Part shown: in pieces, positions 13,635 to 24,409 of the stretch
Layout of the letters: every line of letters begins with the position of its first letter
Numbering within the stretch: the stretch's first letter is position 1
From: an uncultured Selenomonadales bacterium
GTDB taxonomy: Bacteria; Bacillota; Negativicutes; Acidaminococcales; Acidaminococcaceae
Assembly (NCBI GenBank): GCA_900314855.1
Contig: OMWZ01000001.1
Span: 124,001-188,000 of the forward strand
Length of the DNA: 64,000 nt
Reading direction: 5' to 3'
Made by a program: the position numbers and the translations under genes
The notes under the pieces: generated by a model
Told to the model about the DNA's origin: nothing
The model's input: the letters and a program-made list of their open reading frames with translations, nothing else
Database searches by the model: none

Positions 13635-13946
13635 TTACTCATTTATAGACAGTTTCTTTTTTAACAAGGCAGCAAGTCCGTTATCCGTCACCGCGGCAGC
13701 CGCGCGGGGCGCCTTTCCGAGGCTGGCGCCCAGGTCTGCCCGCGTAAACGCGCGGATAATGGGAATGTTCGCTCTTTCTGCCAGATGGACCAGTTCTTTC
13801 TCCGTATTGGCGGCCGTGTCTGTCGCAACGAGGAGCAGCACCGCTTCCCGTTTTTCCAGGGCCGTCCGCACGGCGGCATCCCCGGAAGCAATCCGTCCGG
13901 CCTTCTGGGCCAGGCCCAGGACTCCGGCCGCTTCCTTTTCAGCCAT
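13635..13946 (-). CDS. ylxQ: YlxQ-like L7Ae-family RNA-binding protein
   Basis: A 103-residue L7Ae/L30e-fold protein encoded between ylxR and infB, as in Bacillus. The conserved pattern [16 protein letters not shown] near the N-terminus and [16 protein letters not shown] are the kink-turn RNA-binding core. The exact RNA target is not settled. It overlaps rnpM by 8 bases and ends 14 bases before infB. Confidence 0.9.
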
Positions 13947-14211
13947 TCTTCAGTTCCTCCAGCAGGGATCTGTAAACATCATCACTTATCTGTTTGTCAA
14001 AGGCTTTCTCCAGTCTATGACCTTTATAAGCTTTGGTGATGCACTCTTTGTCCGGGCACACATAGGCGCCCCGCCCCGCTTTCTTTCCCGTTTTGTCCAA
14101 CTCGATGGCGCCTTCGGGGGTGCGGACGATGCGAATCAGTTCCTTCTTGGGCTTCATCGCCTCGCAGCCGATACACTTGCGCAGGGGAATTTTCTTTACC
14201 TTTGTCGTCAC
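13939..14211 (-). CDS. rnpM: YlxR / RnpM, RNase P-associated RNA-binding protein
   Basis: A 90-residue DUF448 protein with the family motifs RKCIGC near residues 12-17, [11 protein letters not shown], and [12 protein letters not shown]. In Bacillus subtilis the homologue binds RNase P RNA and modulates its activity, which is notable because the rnpB gene in this window is strongly reduced. The start is GTG 14211, overlapping the nusA stop as GTGA, with GGTGAG upstream. Confidence 0.9.
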
Positions 14212-15287
14212 TGTTTCTCACCATCCTCCTTGGCAGGGGCTTCCGCAGCGGCTGCGGCCGCCTGGGATTCACTCTTGATATCGATTTTCCAGCCTGTCAG
14301 TTTGGCTGCCAGGCGGGCGTTCTGTCCTTCCTTGCCGATGGCCAGGGACAGCTGGAAATCGGGGACGACGATACGGCAGACCTTTTCGGCTTCGTCCGCT
14401 TCGGCCCGGACAACCTGCGCCGGGGACAAAGCGTTCGATACATAGGTGGCCGGATTCTCATTGTATTTGACAATGTCGACTTTTTCCCCGCGCAGTTCGT
14501 CTACCACGTGTTGGACACGCATGCCCTTGTGGCCTACGCAGGCGCCGACAGCATCGACTTTGGAATCTTTGGAGAAGACCGCGATCTTGGACCGCATGCC
14601 CGCTTCCCGGGAAACCGACTTGATTTCCACGACACCGTCGTGGATTTCCGGCACTTCCAGTTCGAAGAGCCGTTTCAGCAGCCCCGGATGGGTACGGGAC
14701 AACATGATCTGTGGTCCCTTGCCGGTCTTCTTGACTTCAACGATATAGAACTTCATGCGGTCGTGGCCCAGATAACGTTCCCCGGGAATCTGCTCGTTCG
14801 CGGCGAGGATGCCGATGGTGGAGCCCAGTTCCACGAAGACCGTCCCCCGTTCCACACGCTGTACAATCCCGGTTACGATGTCGTCTTCCCGGCCGACGAA
14901 CTTGTCGTAGACCAGATTGCGTTCCGCCTCGCGGATGCGCTGCGTGATGATTTGTTTCGCGTTCATGACGGCGACGCGGCTGAAGTCCTTCGGGAAGACT
15001 TCCTGTTCCACAATATCCCCGAGGACATAGTCGGGATTCAGGAGTTGGGCCTGGTCCAGGGAAATCTCGTCATGGGGCCGGACAACCTGGTCGACCACAC
15101 GGCGCTGTTCATACACATGGAACTCACCCGTCCCTTTGTTCAGGACGACACGCACCGTTTGGGAGCTATCGTAATTTTTCTTGTAGGCACTGACCACTGC
15201 CTCTTCTACGGCCTGAAACAAGATCTCGGGATTGATTCCTTTCTCTTTCCCCAACAGTTCAATGGCCTGCACAAACTCGGAATTCAC
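14208..15287 (-). CDS. nusA: Transcription termination/antitermination factor NusA
   Basis: RNA polymerase-binding elongation factor. The 359 residues cover the N-terminal domain, S1 domain (about 135-200, [21 protein letters not shown]), and KH domains (about 205-345, with [13 protein letters not shown] and [22 protein letters not shown]). It is the short Gram-positive form without C-terminal acidic repeats and ends in an alanine/glutamate tail. The start is GTG 15287 after AAGGAGGA. Confidence 0.97.
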
Positions 15288-15302
15288 TTTAATACGTCCT
15301 CC

Positions 15303-15779
15303 TTAAAAATCAATATGGGGTTTTACAGTAGCAATCAGCTTCCGCTCTATGACAGACGCCTTGGCGTCCGTTCTACCTTTGACAATCTTGCGTACGGACA
15401 CGGTGTCCGCATCGTGGGCCACGAGGATGCCCGTGACCGCTTTCATCCCTTCCCAGGGTTCGTAAAAGGCCAGGTCGACCTTCTGTCCGTAGCGGGATGT
15501 AAAGTCTTTGTCCTTTTTCAAGGGCCGGTCGATGCCCGGCGACGAAACCTCCAGGTAATACTTTTCCTTGATGGGGTCTTCCTTGTCGAGGACCTCCGCC
15601 AGCTTCTCACTGACACGCTGGCAGTCGTCGATTTCGATGCCGCCTTCCTTGTCGATGTACACGCGCAGATACCAGTCTTTCTGCCGCACGTATTCCACGT
15701 CGACGAGGGAAAGTTCCGTGCCGTCCAGGATTGTTTCCACGACGGAGGCAATGTACCGTTCTACTTCTTCCCGTTTCAT
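15303..15779 (-). CDS. rimP: Ribosome maturation factor RimP
   Basis: Needed for 30S assembly. The 158-residue protein shows the RimP pattern ELSLVDVEYVRQKDWYLRVYID, then YYLEVSSPGIDRPLKKDKDF, and a C-terminal Sm-like domain. ATG 15779 (MKREEVERY) is selected because AAGGTG precedes it and the longer upstream frame reads through the leader and promoter. First gene of the nusA-infB operon. Confidence 0.96.
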   Translation of the reverse strand: MKREEVERYIASVVETILDGTELSLVDVEYVRQKDWYLRVYIDKEGGIEIDDCQRVSEKLAEVLDKEDPIKEKYYLEVSSPGIDRPLKKDKDFTSRYGQKVDLAFYEPWEGMKAVTGILVAHDADTVSVRKIVKGRTDAKASVIERKLIATVKPHIDF

Positions 15780-15823
15780 GTTGTCACCTTGTCTTTCTTC
15801 CCAAAACCACTCAAATATAACGA

Positions 15824-15848
15824 AAGAGCGGGTTTTGCACCCACTCTT
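15824..15848 (-). promoter_or_regulatory. Leader hairpin before rimP
   Basis: In the transcribed leader, a 10-bp stem (AAGAGTGGGT with ACCCGCTCTT, one G-U pair) closes a five-base loop and is followed by a T-rich stretch on the minus strand. It sits between the promoter and rimP and could be an attenuator for the nusA-infB operon; function is inferred. Confidence 0.45.
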
Positions 15849-15877
15849 CCTGATTGCTTCATAAATTTTCCAAGATG

Positions 15878-15906
15878 ATTGTATCATGTTTTCGTAACGT
15901 TTACAA
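15878..15906 (-). promoter_or_regulatory. Predicted sigma-A promoter of the rimP-nusA-infB operon
   Basis: TTGTAA (15906-15901), a 17-bp spacer and TACAAT (15883-15878) on the minus strand lie in the A+T-rich gap between polC and rimP. Spacing and location fit a strong operon promoter with a leader of roughly 90 nt. Confidence 0.7.
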
Positions 15907-15981
15907 CACTTTTTGCAGTAAAACGCGAAAAAACAGAGGAAAAAAGAGGAATTTCCTTCCTGAACGGCAGTCCTGTTCCTG

Positions 15982-18900
15982 TCAGAACAGGGAAATCTGG
16001 TTCGTTTCAGGCAGGCTGCCCAGGGCACCCAAGGCGTTCAGGGCATCGAGGGCGGATTGACCGACGTGGCCCAGATGCTGCTCTTCGTCGGACAATTCGG
16101 CGCCGTCCTGCGCTTTTCGGAGCGTTTCCGCCTCCACCTTGGCGCAGCGGGCGATCAGGTCTTCCATGGACAGGAAGTCCTGTCCTTCTTCCCGGGCCCG
16201 TTTGGCCGTCAGGGCCAACGTACGGCCGACACCGTCGCCAACGCCGGGCAGGGCCGATAGGGGAATGCGCACGCCCTTCTCCCCTTCTGGGAGAAAACGG
16301 TGTCCGTGGGACTTGTATAGGTCGATGGGAAGAAACTCAAAGCCTCGGGCCAGCATTTCCAGGATGAGCTGCAGATAGATGCAGTTTGTCTTGTCCACAG
16401 GCGAAGCCTGGAATCCCTGGGCTTCCACGTTCTTGAGATATTGCCGGATAAATTCCTCACCTTTGTAGATGAAGTTCGCGTCCACATCGGCGCGCTGGGA
16501 GAAATAGGCCGCGTAGTAGGCCGTCGGATAATGGACCTTGCAGTAGGCGATGCGATAGGCGTTCAGGACGTAAGCCACGGCATGCGCTTTCGGGAACAGG
16601 TACTCGACGGTTTCGCAGCTCTTCATGTACCAATCGGGTACGCCGGCCTTTTCCATGGCTTCGCGCATCTTCGGCTCCAGCCCTTTTTTGGCGGCCTTGC
16701 CCTTGCGCACATATTCCATGATTTTGAAAGCCATGGACGAATCGACGCCACGGGCAATCAGGCTTGTCATGACGTCATCCCGGGTGGAAATGGTCTGCTC
16801 TACCGGGCGGTGTTCCTTTTCAATCAGATCTTTGGCGTTGCCAAGCCAGACGTTGGTGCCGTGGGAATACCCGGATACGCGGACAATATCGCTGAAAATT
16901 TTCGGCTTCATGGTGTAAATCATTTCCAGCGTGAAATTGGTGCCGCATTCAGGAATTCCCAAGGTGCCGACCTTGGTGCCGATTTGTTCCGGCGTGACGT
17001 GCAGGACGTCCGTTCCCTGGAAAAGGGCCATCGTATCCGGATCCCCGATGGGGATGGTCGTCGGGTCGATGCCCGTAAATTCCTGGAGACGCTTGATCAT
17101 GGTCGGATCCACGTGGCCCAAGATATCCAGCTTGACCAGGCGGTCGTTGATGGAATGGTAGTCGAAATGGGTGGTGATAATGTCGCTTTCCTTGTCGTCC
17201 GCCGGATGGTTCATGCCGGTAAAGTAATGGATGTCCATATCCCGGGGAATGACCATGATGCCTGCCGGATGCTGGCCCGTCCCGCGTTTGACCCCGTTCA
17301 GTCCTTCGGCGAATTTGCTGATGTAGGCCGGATGGGCCGGGATGTTGTGTTCTTCAAAATACTTGCGGGCGTAACTCATGGCCGTTTTCGGTGCCACCGT
17401 CGTAATGGTACCGGCACGGCACACATTGTCCCGGCCGAAGAGCTCTTCCGTGTACTTGTGGGCCGAATGCTGGTATTCGTCGGAGAAGTTCAGGTCGATA
17501 TCAGGCACCTTGTCGCCATGGAGTCCCATAAAGACGGCAAAAGGGATATTGTGCCCATCGCGGACCATTTCCGTACCGCATTCAGGACACATCTTGACGG
17601 GCATGTCGAAGCCCGAGGCATATTCGTTGTTCGTGAAAAACTCCGTATGACGGCACTGGGGACACCGGTAATGGGGTACCAGGGGATTGACTTCCGTGAT
17701 GTCCGTCATGCAGGCCACGAAGGACGAACCGACAGAACCCCGGGAGCCGACCAGGTATCCATCGTCGACAGAATGCTTGACCAACTTGTGGGCGATATCG
17801 TAGAGCACGGCGTACCCATGGTTGATAATGGCGTCCAATTCCAGTTTGAGCCGGTCTTCGACGATTTTCGGCAACGTGTCTCCGTACAGTCGATGGGCCT
17901 TGGCATAGCTCAGATCGTGGATTTCCTCTTCCGCGCCAGGCAGGGCCGGCGAATACAGCTGGTCGTCGTCAGGCACGGGTTTCATGGATTCGCACTGGTC
18001 CGCGATCCGGTTTGGATTCGTGACACAGATCTCATAGGCCGTGTCCTTGTCAAAATAGGAAAATTCCGCCAGCATCTCTTCCGTCGTCCGATAATAGAGG
18101 GGCGCCTGGAACTCCGCGTCGCGGTAGCCCTGACTGTATTGCAGGACCGTGCGGGTCATGGCGTCTTCCGGGCGCAGGAAATGGACGTCGCACGTGGCGC
18201 AGCAGGGAATGCCCAGACTTTTCGCCGTCTCGTAGACTTTTTTGTTCATCTCCATGAGCTGCTCACGCGTGAAGCGGCCCATGCGCTCCAGAAAGGCGTT
18301 GTTGCCCAAAGGCTGGACTTCCAGGTAATCGTAGAATGACGCGGTCTGCCGCAGCTGTTCTTCCGTCGCCTTTCCTTCGAAAAGGGATTCTACCGTACGA
18401 TAGACTTCGCCGGCTTCGCAGGCCGAGCCGAGAATCAGGCCCTCGCGATACTCCTGCAGGATTTCGCGGGGAATCATGGGACGCGTCCGGGCGCCGTTGC
18501 CATTGAGGTAGTTCAGGTGGGACAGGGAAATAAGCTGATAGAGATTCTGCAGGCCAATGCGGTTTTTGGCCAGGAGGATGATGTGATGGGACCGGATCTT
18601 GCCGGTATGGGGCAACCGTTCCTTTAAGATATCTCCTTCCTCGTCCGTAATCAAATACCCCTCACAGCCGAGGAGAAGCTTGATCTCGCCTTGGATATCC
18701 GCCAGGGCCTTCGTACAGAACGGAAATGCCTGGACGACGCCGTGGTCCGTAATGGCAAGGGCCTTGTGGCCAAAGCGGATGGCCGTTTCGAGTAGTTCCT
18801 TGATGTCCGCGATGGCGTCGAGCTTGCTCATTTTCGTATGGCAATGGAGTTCGACACGTTTCACCGGGGCCTTGTCCTCCCGGGGAGTGCCCGCTTCCGG

Positions 18901-19773
18901 CATCTGGCGGATGGCGGAGGCCAGGATCGTCATGGCGTCATGGTTGAACCGGTCCGGTTCCGATTTGCCCTGGACCTGGTAGACGCTCCCCTTTTTCAGT
19001 TTTTTGGCGGTGGACTGAAGCTCCTCTTTCTTGTCGAACAGGACTTTGACGTAAACGCCGTTCGCGTCGTCGGCCAGGCTGAAAAGAAGAAGGAATTTCT
19101 GGTTCCGCAGTTCTTTTTCCGAATAGGTTTCGAATTTTTTCCCTTCTTTATCCAGGGCTCCGACGAGGGTGCCTTGGACAACGACGTTCCTCTCCGCTTC
19201 GATCAGGCTGTTCATGGGACGCACGGCCCCCTTGATCCGATGTCCCAGGAGGAACCCGTCGGCAAATTTATCGCCGTACAACGAGGCATAGGCCTTTTGA
19301 AAGGCTTCATCCTGCAGGGAAGGCGCTCCGGCAGGAACAGAAGGCGCTGCCGGGGAAGGCGCCGGCGCGGCAGGAGACGCCGGGGAATCGGGAGACCCGG
19401 CAATCCCCAGTCCGGAGACGGTCGTTTCCTCTTCCGGCTCCCCAAAGTCGGGCGGCGCGTCGTTCCCTTGTGGGTCCGGCGCAGACTGTGCCGGGGAAGC
19501 GGCGGCGCGGTGTTTCGGGACACAGCGGTTCCACCGGACCCGGGAGGTGCCGAAGGCGGACCGAAAGGCGTCCGACACGACTTGAAGCAGGTCTTCCCCA
19601 GGGTCACAGGGCGCCGTGTAATCGATCTGCCACTGGTCGGCAGCCGTGTCCACCCAGATTTTATGGGCCCGTAAAACCTTGGCCTTGAATTTTTGTTCTG
19701 ATGAAAGCGACAGTGAATTCAAAAATTTAGTGAATTCACTGTCGTGGATGTCAATGTAAAAATCAGCGTTCAT
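15982..19773 (-). CDS. polC: DNA polymerase III PolC-type alpha subunit lacking the exonuclease domain
   Basis: Replicative polymerase of Firmicutes. Order: N-terminal domain (1-90), proline/alanine linker (90-155), OB domain (about 195-290), PHP domain (from 306, KRVELHCHTKMSKLDA, ITDHGVVQAF), zinc-binding region (CPQC...CPECG), palm with PDIDLNFSDEYQ, fingers, and a C-terminal clamp-binding QISLF. The length is 1263 residues instead of about 1430. Where family members carry a DnaQ-like exonuclease inside PHP, here GCEGYLITDEEG (about 369-380) runs within some 15 residues into HHIILLAKNRIGLQNLY. Proofreading must come from another protein, if present. It starts at ATG 19773, 3 bases after the MgtC stop. 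Confidence 0.96.
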   Translation of the reverse strand: MNADFYIDIHDSEFTKFLNSLSLSSEQKFKAKVLRAHKIWVDTAADQWQIDYTAPCDPGEDLLQVVSDAFRSAFGTSRVRWNRCVPKHRAAASPAQSAPDPQGNDAPPDFGEPEEETTVSGLGIAGSPDSPASPAAPAPSPAAPSVPAGAPSLQDEAFQKAYASLYGDKFADGFLLGHRIKGAVRPMNSLIEAERNVVVQGTLVGALDKEGKKFETYSEKELRNQKFLLLFSLADDANGVYVKVLFDKKEELQSTAKKLKKGSVYQVQGKSEPDRFNHDAMTILASAIRQMPEAGTPREDKAPVKRVELHCHTKMSKLDAIADIKELLETAIRFGHKALAITDHGVVQAFPFCTKALADIQGEIKLLLGCEGYLITDEEGDILKERLPHTGKIRSHHIILLAKNRIGLQNLYQLISLSHLNYLNGNGARTRPMIPREILQEYREGLILGSACEAGEVYRTVESLFEGKATEEQLRQTASFYDYLEVQPLGNNAFLERMGRFTREQLMEMNKKVYETAKSLGIPCCATCDVHFLRPEDAMTRTVLQYSQGYRDAEFQAPLYYRTTEEMLAEFSYFDKDTAYEICVTNPNRIADQCESMKPVPDDDQLYSPALPGAEEEIHDLSYAKAHRLYGDTLPKIVEDRLKLELDAIINHGYAVLYDIAHKLVKHSVDDGYLVGSRGSVGSSFVACMTDITEVNPLVPHYRCPQCRHTEFFTNNEYASGFDMPVKMCPECGTEMVRDGHNIPFAVFMGLHGDKVPDIDLNFSDEYQHSAHKYTEELFGRDNVCRAGTITTVAPKTAMSYARKYFEEHNIPAHPAYISKFAEGLNGVKRGTGQHPAGIMVIPRDMDIHYFTGMNHPADDKESDIITTHFDYHSINDRLVKLDILGHVDPTMIKRLQEFTGIDPTTIPIGDPDTMALFQGTDVLHVTPEQIGTKVGTLGIPECGTNFTLEMIYTMKPKIFSDIVRVSGYSHGTNVWLGNAKDLIEKEHRPVEQTISTRDDVMTSLIARGVDSSMAFKIMEYVRKGKAAKKGLEPKMREAMEKAGVPDWYMKSCETVEYLFPKAHAVAYVLNAYRIAYCKVHYPTAYYAAYFSQRADVDANFIYKGEEFIRQYLKNVEAQGFQASPVDKTNCIYLQLILEMLARGFEFLPIDLYKSHGHRFLPEGEKGVRIPLSALPGVGDGVGRTLALTAKRAREEGQDFLSMEDLIARCAKVEAETLRKAQDGAELSDEEQHLGHVGQSALDALNALGALGSLPETNQISLF

Positions 19774-19776
19774 AAA

Positions 19777-20493
19777 TCAACCTACATTTTCTATCGTCAG
19801 GATCCCGTCAATCTGCTGAATCCCCATGGTGAGATCCGTCGCGTCCTGATCCGGCGAGAATTTCAGGTACAACTCCAACAGGACTTGTTTTTTTGTCGGG
19901 TTGTTTTTGACATTGATTGTCTTCACCTTAATCCTGTTTTCCGTCAGGTAGTTCGTGACGTTGGTAATCAGGCCGGGACTGTTGACGGCCGTGATGCGGA
20001 TGAATTTGCGATCCGGACTGCGGCCCACGCTGAAGCGTTTTTCCCAGGTATGGAAGGTGACGAGCGTAACCATCGTGATCCCCGTCGCCATGATGCTGAT
20101 GAAATACATGCCGGCACCCGTAGCGAGACCGATGGCGGAAACCATCCAGAGGCTGGCTGCCGTGGTCAGGCCGCGGACGGTCAGCCCTTCGTGGAGGATC
20201 GTGCCGGCGCCAAGAAAGCCGATTCCGCTGACGACCTGCGCCGCGATGCGGGCAGAGTCACGGTTGCGAGGGTACTCGAAAGGAATCTGGTCGAACCCGT
20301 CAAAGCCGTACAGGGAGACAAGCATAATCAGAGTCGAGCCGGCGCAGACCAAAATATGGGTCCGGAATCCGGCCGGCCTGTCCCCGCTTCCCCGTTCCAT
20401 ACCGACAATCCCGCCGAATACGGCGGACAGGATCATGCGGACCAGCATTTCGAATTGGATGGAATTGATAAATTGAGTGAACCAGGATTCCAT
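19777..20493 (-). CDS. MgtC/SapB family membrane protein
   Basis: A 238-residue protein with about five N-terminal membrane segments and the MgtC signatures VFGGIVGMERGSGDRPAGFRT (near 25-45) and VVSGIGFLGAGTI (near 88-100), plus a soluble C-terminal ACT-like domain (about 150-238, RITAVNSPGLITNVTNYL). MgtC proteins are linked to magnesium limitation and membrane potential, but the activity here is unknown. It is tightly packed between proS (18 bases) and polC (3 bases), so it is translated with essential genes. Confidence 0.88.
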   Translation of the reverse strand: MESWFTQFINSIQFEMLVRMILSAVFGGIVGMERGSGDRPAGFRTHILVCAGSTLIMLVSLYGFDGFDQIPFEYPRNRDSARIAAQVVSGIGFLGAGTILHEGLTVRGLTTAASLWMVSAIGLATGAGMYFISIMATGITMVTLVTFHTWEKRFSVGRSPDRKFIRITAVNSPGLITNVTNYLTENRIKVKTINVKNNPTKKQVLLELYLKFSPDQDATDLTMGIQQIDGILTIENVG

Positions 20494-20511
20494 GTGATAC
20501 CCCCTCAGAAG

Positions 20512-22224
20512 TTACTTTTGGAGAGCCTCCAGCATGTCGCGGACGGTGCCGGTGAAATCATCGGCAGGCAGCAGGACCGTTTCGCCGGTTTTCCGCGTAC
20601 GGACTTCAATCTGGCCCTTGTCCAGGGTCTTTTTCCCGATGGTGATACGCAGAGGGAAACCGTACAGATCGGCGTCCTTGAATTTGACGCCCGGCCGTTC
20701 GTCGCGGTCGTCCAGGAGGACTTCCAGTCCGGCCTTCGTCAGTTCTTCATAGACGGAGAAAGCCTTCTCCCGGATCGCGTCGTCCTTGATATTGACCGGG
20801 ACGATGAGGACGTGATAAGGCGCGATCTGGGCCGGCCAGATAATGCCGTCCTTGTCGTTGTTCTGCTCCACGGCGGCCGCCATCGTCCGGCCTACGCCGA
20901 TGCCGTAGCAGCCCATCTGCATGGGAATCGATTTTCCCGTCTCGTCGAGGATGGTCGCGCCCATGGAGGCACTGTATTTATCGCGCAATTTGAAGATTTG
21001 ACCGACTTCGATGCCGCGGGCCTTGGCGATGGTACCGCCGCAATGGGGACAGGGATCCCCTTCCTGCATGAGGCGGATGTCCGCCACATAGGTAGGCGTG
21101 AAGTCACGCCCCGGATTGACGTTGATCCAGTGATAGCCTTCCTCGTTGGCGCCGCAGCAGAAGTTATGCATGTTCATGACCGTAGCATCGCAGACGATGA
21201 TGACTTTTTTCGGGTCGAGTCCGCAGGGGCCCATATAGCCGCCATGCGTGCCGGCCGCTGCCAGTTCTTCTGCCGGCGCCATTTCGATTTCGGGCACGCC
21301 GACCGTATTGACGACTTTGGTCTCGTTGACCTCGTGGTCGCCGCGGACAAAGCACAGAATCAGTCCTTTGGCGCTCGTATAGGCCACAGCCTTGACAGAC
21401 TTCTCCACCGGGGCCTTCAGGTAGTCGCAGACGGCCTGGATGGTCTTGCAGTCCGGCGTGGCGACTTTTTCTTTCTCTTTCAGTTCTTCCGGCGCGGATT
21501 CCAACGGATGAAGTTCCGCTTTTTCCGTGTCGGCGGCATAATTGCACTGCGTGCAGTAGCAGATTTCCGCTTCGCCGCTGTCGGCGAGGACCATGAATTC
21601 ATGGGAGCCGTTGCCGCCGATGGCGCCGCTGTCCGCTTCGACGGGGCGAAAGACCAGGCCGCAGCGTTGGAAGATGTTCGTGTAGGCCTGATACATTTTT
21701 TCATAAGCCTTGTCCAGGCCGGCTTCGTCGACATCAAAGGAATAGCCGTCTTTCATGATGAACTCACGGCTCCGCATCAGGCCGAAACGGGGGCGCCGTT
21801 CGTCGCGGAACTTGTCCTGGATCTGGTACAGGTTCAAGGGCAGCTGCCGGTAGGAATTGACATCCATCTGGGCCAGGAACGTAATCATTTCCTCGTGTGT
21901 CGGCCCCAGGCAGTAATCATGGCCGTGGCGATCCTTGATGCGCCACATCTCCCCGCCGTAAGCGTCCCAGCGGCCGCTTTGTTTCCAGAGCTCCGACGGC
22001 TGCAGGACCGGCATCAGGATTTCCTGGGCGCCGGCGGCTTCCATTTCTTCCCGGATGATGGCCTCGATTTTTTTCAGGACGCGCTGCGCCAGCGGCAGGA
22101 ACGTATACATGCCCGTGGCGGACTTACGCATATAGCCCGCACGGAGCATCAGTTTGTGGCTGGGAATTTCCGCTTCTGCCGGAACCTCCCGCAAGGTCGG
22201 TGCGTAAAGTTTGCTGACTAACAT
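20512..22224 (-). CDS. proS: Prolyl-tRNA synthetase, bacterial type with editing domain
   Basis: Class II synthetase charging tRNA-Pro. The 570-residue length is the bacterial form with the INS editing insertion (about 225-380) between motifs 2 and 3. Visible motifs include motif 2 RFGLMRSREFIMKDGYSF near 140-157 and motif 3 GIGVGRTMAAAVE near 440-452, followed by the anticodon-binding domain. The N-terminus (MLVSKLYAPTLREVPAEAEI) is typical. ispG lies directly upstream with 1 base between. Confidence 0.97.
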   Translation of the reverse strand: MLVSKLYAPTLREVPAEAEIPSHKLMLRAGYMRKSATGMYTFLPLAQRVLKKIEAIIREEMEAAGAQEILMPVLQPSELWKQSGRWDAYGGEMWRIKDRHGHDYCLGPTHEEMITFLAQMDVNSYRQLPLNLYQIQDKFRDERRPRFGLMRSREFIMKDGYSFDVDEAGLDKAYEKMYQAYTNIFQRCGLVFRPVEADSGAIGGNGSHEFMVLADSGEAEICYCTQCNYAADTEKAELHPLESAPEELKEKEKVATPDCKTIQAVCDYLKAPVEKSVKAVAYTSAKGLILCFVRGDHEVNETKVVNTVGVPEIEMAPAEELAAAGTHGGYMGPCGLDPKKVIIVCDATVMNMHNFCCGANEEGYHWINVNPGRDFTPTYVADIRLMQEGDPCPHCGGTIAKARGIEVGQIFKLRDKYSASMGATILDETGKSIPMQMGCYGIGVGRTMAAAVEQNNDKDGIIWPAQIAPYHVLIVPVNIKDDAIREKAFSVYEELTKAGLEVLLDDRDERPGVKFKDADLYGFPLRITIGKKTLDKGQIEVRTRKTGETVLLPADDFTGTVRDMLEALQK

Positions 22225-22225
22225 T

Positions 22226-23296
22226 TTATTGCTTCTTCCTCTCGTCTAAAATTTTATCGATTTCCACGAACAGGGATGGGATAAGGTCTTCTTCGGGTAC
22301 TTTCTTCAAGACCTCGCCCCTGCGGAAGACCAGCCCCTCCCCTTTGCCGCCGGCAATGCCGACATCGGCTTCCCGGGCTTCGCCCGGTCCGTTGACGACG
22401 CATCCCATGACGGCGACTGTAATGGGCTCCTTGATGCCGGCCAGATGCGCCTCCACCTGACCGGCCAGTTTTTCCAGGTCGATGCTGGTGCGGCCGCAGG
22501 TAGGACAGCTGATGAGGGTCGCGCCATGCTGGCGCAGGCCCAGGGCCTTCAGGATTTCAAAGCCCGCCTTGACCTCTTCCGCCGGGTCACCTGTCAGGGA
22601 AACACGGATGGTATCGCCAATGCCTTCGGCCAGAAGGGCCCCGATCCCGACAGCCGACTTGATCAAGCCGGAATGGACGGTCCCCGCTTCCGTAATGCCC
22701 ACGTGCAGCGGATAATCACACTGTGACGCCAGCAGGCGGTATGCGGCCAGGGTCAGGGGGACGTCGTGGCATTTGAGGCTGACCTTGATGTTGCCGTACT
22801 CCATATCCTCCAGGATGTGGATGTGGCGCCAGGCCGCTTCTACCAAGGCTTCCGGCGTCGGATGCCCGTATTTTTCCAAAAGGTCGCGTGGCAGCGAACC
22901 GGCGTTGACGCCGATCCGGATGGGAAGGTGACGCGCCCTGGCTGCTTCCACGACGGCGCGCACCTTGTCAGGGCCGCCGATGTTCCCGGGGTTGAGGCGC
23001 AGCCCGTCCACGCCGGATTCGATGGCCTGCAGGGCCAGCCGATAGTCGAAGTGGATATCCGCAATGACCGGGATGGGACTGCCGGCCGTAATGTCCTTCA
23101 GCGCCAGGGCCGCTTCCTGGTCCGGGACGGCACAGCGGATGATATCACAGCCCAGGTCGGCCAACCGCCGGATCTGGGCCAGTGTCGCCTGCGCGTTCTG
23201 GGTCTTGGTATTGGTCATGGACTGGACCGAAACGGGGGCGCCGCCGCCGATTTTCACGGATCCAACCTGGATTTGACGGGTTTTTCTGCGTTCCAT
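22226..23296 (-). CDS. ispG: 4-hydroxy-3-methylbut-2-enyl diphosphate synthase
   Basis: [4Fe-4S] enzyme of the MEP isoprenoid pathway. The 356-residue protein has the TIM-barrel start TRQIQVGSVKIGGGAPVSVQ, the cluster-binding SCPTCGRTSIDL (near 265) and GCVVNGPGEAREADVGIAGG (near 305-325). It starts at ATG 23296 after AAGGAG. With dxr and uppS in the same gene string, it links precursor synthesis to undecaprenyl phosphate. Confidence 0.97.
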   Translation of the reverse strand: MERRKTRQIQVGSVKIGGGAPVSVQSMTNTKTQNAQATLAQIRRLADLGCDIIRCAVPDQEAALALKDITAGSPIPVIADIHFDYRLALQAIESGVDGLRLNPGNIGGPDKVRAVVEAARARHLPIRIGVNAGSLPRDLLEKYGHPTPEALVEAAWRHIHILEDMEYGNIKVSLKCHDVPLTLAAYRLLASQCDYPLHVGITEAGTVHSGLIKSAVGIGALLAEGIGDTIRVSLTGDPAEEVKAGFEILKALGLRQHGATLISCPTCGRTSIDLEKLAGQVEAHLAGIKEPITVAVMGCVVNGPGEAREADVGIAGGKGEGLVFRRGEVLKKVPEEDLIPSLFVEIDKILDERKKQ

Positions 23297-23386
23297 ATGA
23301 ACAGCTCCTTTGTCGTTCCCGTTTCCGGGAGGCCGTTGAAACGACCGTTTTTTATTATACCATAGTTCTGTCCGTTCCGGACGGAA

Positions 23387-24409
23387 TCAGCGGGTGAAAT
23401 CCATATAGGTTGCCAGGATCGTGACGGCCAGGATCATGAGGACACCGGCCTTTTGGATATTGAGCATGGCTTTTTTCCCCAGACGGCGGCCTGTAATGGC
23501 TTCGGCGAGGAGAATGAAAAAGTGTCCGCCGTCCAGCGCGGGCAGCGGCAGAAGATTGATGACCGCCAGATTCAGGCTCAGGAGGGCCATAAATTGAAGC
23601 AAGGGCGCGAAGCCTTGCTGCGCCATCTCGCCCGTCATTTTCGCCACTCCCACGGGACCGGCCAATTCGGCCCCCGAACGGCCCGTCACCATCTGATACA
23701 GGCCCCGATACATGGACAACAAGATGTTGCCCGTCGCCCGGACGGAAGTAGCCGCCGCCTGTCCCGGGCCCAGCCGGACCTGACGTACGGCGGACAAGAC
23801 TCCGAGGAATGGCCGTCCCGATTCGGGGTTGGCCTGGGGCGTCATCATCAAGGTCTGACGGGTGCCGTCCCGTTCGATCACAATGGGCAAGGTCCGGAAG
23901 TCTGACGCGGCAATCTCCGAGCGGACACCGTCCCAGTCCGCGACCGGCCGGCCGTCAATCGTGACGATCCGGTCCCCGGCCCGCATGCCGCCCTGTGCCG
24001 CCGCTTGTCCCGGGACGACCTGTCCGATGATTGGTTCGTGGACCGGCATGTTGACGCCTACCAGGAGAAAGAGACTGAAAAAGATAAAGACCGGCAGGAG
24101 AAGATTCATGACGGACCCTGCCAGGATGACCAGCATGCGGGCCCAGACCGATTTCGAGTTGAAGCCCCGCTCCACGTCGGGGGGATCGTCGGGATCCATG
24201 CCGGCAATCCGGTTGTAACCGCCCAAAGGCAGGACGCGCAGGGAGTACAGAGTCTCCCCTTTCCGCTTCTGCCAGAGGTTCGGCCCAAAGCCGATGGCAA
24301 ATTCGTCGACCCGCATACCCGTCAGTTTGGCCGTGATGAAATGGCCGAACTCATGGATGGAAATGAGGACGCCGAAGACAAAGATACAAGCAAGGATAGT
24401 GACTAACAC
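23387..24409 (-). CDS. rseP: RIP metalloprotease RseP (site-2 protease)
   Basis: Intramembrane zinc protease. The catalytic HEFGH is at residues 19-23 in the first membrane segment, a PDZ domain lies at about 120-195 (QVVPGQAAAQGGMRAGDRIV), and the LDG motif is in NLLPLPALDGGHFF near 283-296. The length of 340 residues is normal for one PDZ domain. The start is GTG 24409 behind AAGGAG. Its substrate in this organism is not evident; no anti-sigma gene is adjacent. Confidence 0.95.
   Translation of the reverse strand: MLVTILACIFVFGVLISIHEFGHFITAKLTGMRVDEFAIGFGPNLWQKRKGETLYSLRVLPLGGYNRIAGMDPDDPPDVERGFNSKSVWARMLVILAGSVMNLLLPVFIFFSLFLLVGVNMPVHEPIIGQVVPGQAAAQGGMRAGDRIVTIDGRPVADWDGVRSEIAASDFRTLPIVIERDGTRQTLMMTPQANPESGRPFLGVLSAVRQVRLGPGQAAATSVRATGNILLSMYRGLYQMVTGRSGAELAGPVGVAKMTGEMAQQGFAPLLQFMALLSLNLAVINLLPLPALDGGHFFILLAEAITGRRLGKKAMLNIQKAGVLMILAVTILATYMDFTR

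Follow-up and report, generated by a model that had tools for sequence, protein, structure and literature searches.

The window polC gene and its product

The window is the whole 64,000-nucleotide stretch of DNA analysed here. Its polC locus comprises the following features:

13939..24409, minus strand: polC context, with genes for an M50 peptidase (RseP-like), GcpE/IspG, prolyl-tRNA synthetase, MgtC, polC, RimP, NusA and YlxR (Pfam), the usual gene order of a polC neighbourhood or operon
15982..19773, minus strand: polC, encoding a 1263-aa DNA polymerase III alpha subunit of the PolC type without an embedded exonuclease (Exo) domain (open reading frame; NF001688 and TIGR01405; 3f2b and 9qpc)
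17971..18873, minus strand: PHP domain and following segment, residues 301–601, the modelled region, a continuous PHP fold
18181..18846, minus strand: the nine PHP metal-site residues H310, H312, D319, H344, E371, H397, C452, D529 and H531 (HHDHEHCDH), complete by alignment
18583..18663, minus strand: Glu371–His397 junction of the PHP domain, where Exo lies in other PolCs (alignment spacing 26)
15985..15999, minus strand: clamp-binding-like pentapeptide QISLF at the PolC C-terminus, from the translation (consensus QL[S/D]LF, PMC3919608)

The window protein exceeds the curated cut-offs of both NCBIfam PolC equivalog models, NF001688 (1268.9 bits against 873) and TIGR01405 (1169.9 against 1043.45), and its best solved-structure matches are the PolCs 3f2b and 9qpc. 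The NCBIfam models hit it as two pieces, the better of which begins downstream of Exo. Pfam detects DNA_pol3_alpha, PHP, finger and HhH only, with no RNase_T/DEDDh domain anywhere in the protein; the embedded DnaQ-like Exo of the PolC type is therefore lacking, and the C-terminal clamp-binding motif is present as QISLF. The N-terminal region (window positions 19310–19520) contains a long Pro/Ala/Ser-rich linker at approximately residues 85–155. In the PolC tree the protein is placed beside the Phascolarctobacterium and Acidaminococcus PolCs, and an orthologous, vertically inherited Negativicutes PolC is the best explanation of its identity.

Comparison with the Bacillus/Geobacillus/Staphylococcus-type PolCs (3f2b, 9qpc) reveals a common core fold and clamp motif, together with the OB, PHP, palm, finger and HhH domains, whereas in those enzymes the PHP loop houses a DEDDh Exo and Asn replaces D529. 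The PHP domain is 35% identical to that of 3f2b, whose crystallised construct had Exo removed (PMC3919608, Fig. 1 legend), and the 9qpc chain aligns to the window PolC in two pieces only, which flank the Exo of 9qpc.

Exo is absent from the PHP junction

The earlier note located the missing domain at 18588–18660, and this interval indeed encodes, on the minus strand, PolC residues 372–396, between the metal-site residues Glu371 and His397. As it described, the PHP text is joined across some 15 residues, with DILKERLPHTGKIRS lying between ITDEEG and HHIILLAKN. The spacing from Glu371 to His397 is 26, and the equivalent spacing is 13–34 in exo-less PolCs and 210–221 in exo-bearing ones (n = 29), in which the inserts of 13 aligned proteins retain the DEDDh residues. 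The note's residue counts also hold: the window PolC has 1263 aa, and the median frame in the sample is 1446 aa for PolCs with Exo and 1236 aa for those lacking it. An exonuclease motif set elsewhere in the protein, which would have overturned the reading, is not found, as the Pfam search returns no RNase_T match. The exo-less spacing is comparable in size to the PHP loops of Taq (18) and Mtb (29) (PMC5636811).

An assembly or frameshift artefact could in principle explain the missing domain, yet nothing speaks for it and we give it practically no weight: the 1263-aa frame is open, and the same architecture recurs in 110/110 class PolCs, which excludes an assembly error, including a read-level insertion at this point.

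Exo is missing throughout the Negativicutes sample

The PolC alignment across Negativicutes proposed in the earlier note bears out the observation for the class as a whole. Our class sample comprises 200 genomes, and PolC junctions were obtained from 109 of them (110 genes, two in G077); all 110 PolCs lack the insert, with spacings of 13–34. PolC L011 begins too late to show the first four PHP residues, and G077 carries two exo-less PolC genes, L105 and L106. The PolC model matches in 199/200 class genomes, although it also matches DnaE, and 194/200 pass the cut-off. Among the matches listed, class PolC hits begin at model positions 603–615, after Exo, in frames of 855–1350 aa, and the RNase_T frames span 184–1012 aa, none of them PolC-sized. 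As a positive control, the RNase_T search detects Exo within PolC frames of 1439–1459 aa in 6/6 exo-bearing genomes.

Among 80 PolC loci taken from genome contigs, 29 carry Exo and 50 do not; L141, whose frame is broken, could not be judged and stands outside both counts, although the automated tally enters it as exo-less, and L160 is frame-broken with a readable junction. Exo-less PolCs are not confined to the class, being found also in Desulfitobacterium, Desulfosporosinus, Moorella, Thermanaeromonas, Cuneatibacter, another Lachnospiraceae bacterium and some MAGs.

This architecture was published in 2013, a precedent that the earlier note does not mention and that makes the missing domain in itself largely ordinary. 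Timinskas et al. (PMC3919608) found no Exo in 6% of PolCs, which came almost exclusively from Clostridia or Negativicutes and were paired with DnaE1; they call the embedded Exo a PolC hallmark, though with 6% lacking it the domain is not strictly defining. The window PolC belongs to this subgroup, with the same Exo loss in PHP, the same classes and the same DnaE1 pairing, and nothing essential differs. Our analysis adds the 110/110 class PolCs, at least two separate changes in Exo presence, and genomes in which no DnaQ is detected.

Loss or ancestral absence of Exo

Two trees were analysed, one of 88 rows drawn from 139 PolCs and one of 65 PolCs with 12 DnaE1s. On the 88-row tree, Exo presence requires five changes, three of which are forced by starred branches. 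Once the seven nested clostridial rows are set aside, 52 exo-less rows form one side of a branch with support 86 that is not starred. Exo-less PolC could be the ancestral state, with Exo inserted later in other Firmicutes, and it agrees with this that under midpoint rooting the Negativicutes lie to one side and that the DnaE relatives have no insert. We nevertheless consider ancestral absence unlikely. Exo-less rows are nested within exo-bearing Clostridia and a topology uniting all exo-less PolCs in one clade is rejected (p-AU 0.0005), so that losses probably occur; moreover, the DnaE1 outgroup places the root among exo-bearing Bacilli-type PolCs, which favours repeated loss, weakened by the very long outgroup branch. 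The absence of Exo in Negativicutes therefore probably reflects loss rather than the original state.

The PHP metal site of PolC is complete

As the window PolC has no embedded exonuclease, proofreading must come from elsewhere, and the earlier note named three options: a protein acting in trans, the PHP domain, or lower fidelity. We examined the PHP metal-binding residues, as it suggested, by alignment to 5lew, and all nine ligands known from the PHP exonucleases of Mtb and Thermus DnaE1 are in place (HHDHEHCDH). An AlphaFold2 model of residues 301–601 (pLDDT 91.6, pTM 0.91) shows the PHP region as a single continuous domain, whose best PDB matches are 3f2b, 3f2c and 9qrl, with DnaE alphas including 5lew scoring lower. 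In no loop other than Glu371–His397 does the model contain a stretch with pLDDT below 50.

The PHP site of M. tuberculosis DnaE1 is a replicative exonuclease, and its D23N and D226N mutants are each inactive, either aspartate change alone abolishing the activity (PMC5636811). D319 and D529 of the window PolC align with these two aspartates (offset of 6 inferred). By comparison, Asn occupies the D529 position in PDB PolCs that naturally carry Exo, namely Geobacillus 3f2b and 9qpc (a chain of 1474 aa); Gka PolC, in which one ligand differs, shows no PHP exonuclease (PMC5636811). A 2026 survey (PMC12926913) scored PHP as active if HHDHEH[C/H]DH is present, a pattern that the window PolC matches, and found three active proofreaders in most Clostridia. 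In the portions of the literature searched, we found no report of exonuclease activity by any PolC PHP domain. The window PolC shares with the DnaE1 PHP exonucleases of M. tuberculosis and Thermus (5lew, 2hpi; PMC5636811) the nine ligands and a short loop at the Exo point; unlike it, those enzymes are of the DnaE type, have OB at the opposite end and have demonstrated activity, which for the window PolC is inferred.

The site is strongly conserved. Among 185 PolCs with the full site readable, it is complete in 150 of 156 exo-less proteins (six incomplete) and in all 29 exo-bearing ones; after removal of duplicates the tally is 142/148 (again six incomplete) and 29/29. Because exo-bearing PolCs retain it without exception, conservation by itself is no proof that PHP has replaced Exo.

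No DnaQ-like protein is detected in some genomes with exo-less PolC

Alternatively, a stand-alone DnaQ-like exonuclease may serve PolC as a proofreader in trans, in the manner of epsilon with E. coli alpha. The search for such a protein, recommended in the earlier note, yielded a candidate in the organism's own genome, which holds two RNase_T proteins. L002 (L002:1246–2025) is a stand-alone 260-aa exonuclease with a basic N-terminal extension, and its scores identify it as a true member of the DEDDh group (RNase_T 92.3 bits; dnaq TIGR00573 75.5 against a cut-off of 71.5). It has strong orthologues (56–75% identity) in 8 of the 9 other same-genus genomes drawn, and across the class at least one RNase_T match is found in 182/200 genomes, all of which is in line with proofreading in trans. 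Against this, the strong orthologues are limited to its own genus and a few further genomes, the rest being weak and many lying in 860–1010-aa frames. Its exonuclease domain reaches residue 244, so that L002 stops shortly past it, whereas epsilon carries a longer C-terminal tail after the domain. The second RNase_T protein is a Cas2e with a C-terminal DEDDh exonuclease, encoded after a type I-E cas1e (L001:1465–3380); because it adjoins Cas1e, this fusion most likely belongs to CRISPR adaptation. As the genome is 89.5% complete, absences there prove nothing.

At the class level, RNase_T finds no match in 18 of the 200 genomes, 12 of which are at least 93% complete. In 16 of these 18, neither TIGR00573 nor a PolC-Exo profile built from 13 PolC Exo domains matches at E ≤ 10; the two left out are G022, with a DnaQ-like protein (42 bits; E 6e-21), and G103, with a very weak match (E 0.11). 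The absence of detectable DnaQ refers to these three profiles, and some of the genomes are incomplete; completeness reaches at least 93% in 11 of the 16. For eight of these 11, the PHP sites of PolC and DnaE1 could both be examined and proved intact; in the remaining three, G058, G106 (stop-interrupted) and G174, PolC is unread, and the DnaE1 of G174 is a fragment. A DnaQ-family protein is thus not found in every genome with an exo-less PolC, and we reject an epsilon in trans as a general requirement, as nearly complete class genomes do without a detectable homologue. We regard it as quite improbable that proofreading in trans is the answer, although L002 might contribute in its own genome.

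Taken with the complete nine-residue site, the nearly complete genomes without DnaQ favour PHP among the three options of the earlier note, whose interpretation is supported in part.

DnaE1 accompanies exo-less PolC in nearly all genomes searched

The own-genome DnaE is L079, classed as DnaE1 rather than DnaE3 by its TIGR00594 score (1246 bits) and its complete PHP site (HHDHEHCDH). Among 56 aligned DnaE1s, three are fragments, broken or wrongly chosen frames, and the PHP site is complete in all 53 readable ones; three more loci yielded no frame.

A further possibility, raised in PMC3919608, is that bulk high-fidelity replication is not the task of PolC: DnaE1, with its intact PHP site, would copy most of the DNA, and PolC would be specialised and fidelity-tolerant, so that Exo was dispensable. 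DnaE1 scores above the TIGR00594 cut-off in 18/19, 11/11 and 28/28 of the genomes searched, the sole exception being G123, which is 65% complete. The genus described below, in which the PolC PHP site has decayed beside a complete DnaE1 site in the same genomes, also fits. A specialised PolC accords less well with the strong PHP conservation (150/156) and the clamp motif of exo-less PolCs, or with the 194/200 class genomes in which PolC passes its cut-off, and we consider it doubtful, though the most serious of the alternatives to proofreading by PHP.

Double loss in a Veillonellaceae genus

In the Veillonellaceae genus g60, all six sampled genomes (loci L174, L231–L235) encode an exo-less PolC with the PHP site HHNHEHCNH, in which Asn has replaced the aspartate at positions 3 and 8 alike, and the DnaE1 PHP site is intact in all six. 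One member is the NCBI entry 'Veillonella sp. 3310', which is our genome G178 by identical coordinates and frames. Within the family (f28), 24 of 28 PolCs were read (G060, G096, G100 and G148 are unread), and the PHP site is intact in all 18 outside g60. As the whole genus shares the Asn/Asn change, it looks like one ancestral event. Judged from sequence, the g60 PolC would have no intact proofreading site, and the loss of both Exo and the PHP site in 6/6 genomes implies that a PolC can apparently live without either. We found no mention of this double loss in the open-licence PubMed Central literature searched, where it seems to be unreported.

A second DnaE is present in two of the 28 Veillonellaceae genomes, G178 (L207, identical to L306, a 1049-aa frame) and G166 (L305, a 950-aa frame), with a PHP site read as complete in L207 only. 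Compensation of the double loss by such a protein is rejected, as only these two of the six g60 genomes have it.

A model for proofreading by the PHP domain

We propose that Exo was lost across the lineage and that proofreading of PolC was left to its own PHP domain, beside a DnaE1 with an intact PHP site; we put the probability of this reading at about 0.7. The Negativicutes lineage would have lost the DnaQ-like Exo from the PHP loop long ago. The PHP domain, with its nine ligands complete, would act as a three-metal 3'–5' exonuclease that cuts DNA and is the main proofreader of PolC products. The primer end would reach the PHP site by way of the short Glu371–His397 loop, the equivalent of which lines the primer-end path in PHP-proofreading DnaE1. 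PolC would work alongside DnaE1, which itself retains an intact PHP site.

A stronger form is that PHP is the sole proofreader of PolC, that PHP supplies the only C-family proofreading in some species, and that the g60 PolC, with Exo gone and both aspartates changed to Asn, has none. We hold this tentatively, at somewhat below even odds. If it is true, either DnaE1 carries high-fidelity synthesis in g60, or PolC errors are corrected in trans.

The PolCs used as models contain Exo, and their PHP site is often damaged, whereas the exo-less PolCs of Negativicutes with an intact PHP site would be natural single-proofreader enzymes. Together with the natural double loss in g60, they make a direct test of PolC PHP proofreading possible, and both bear on the question of whether PolC or DnaE1 is the bulk replicase in bacteria that possess the two.
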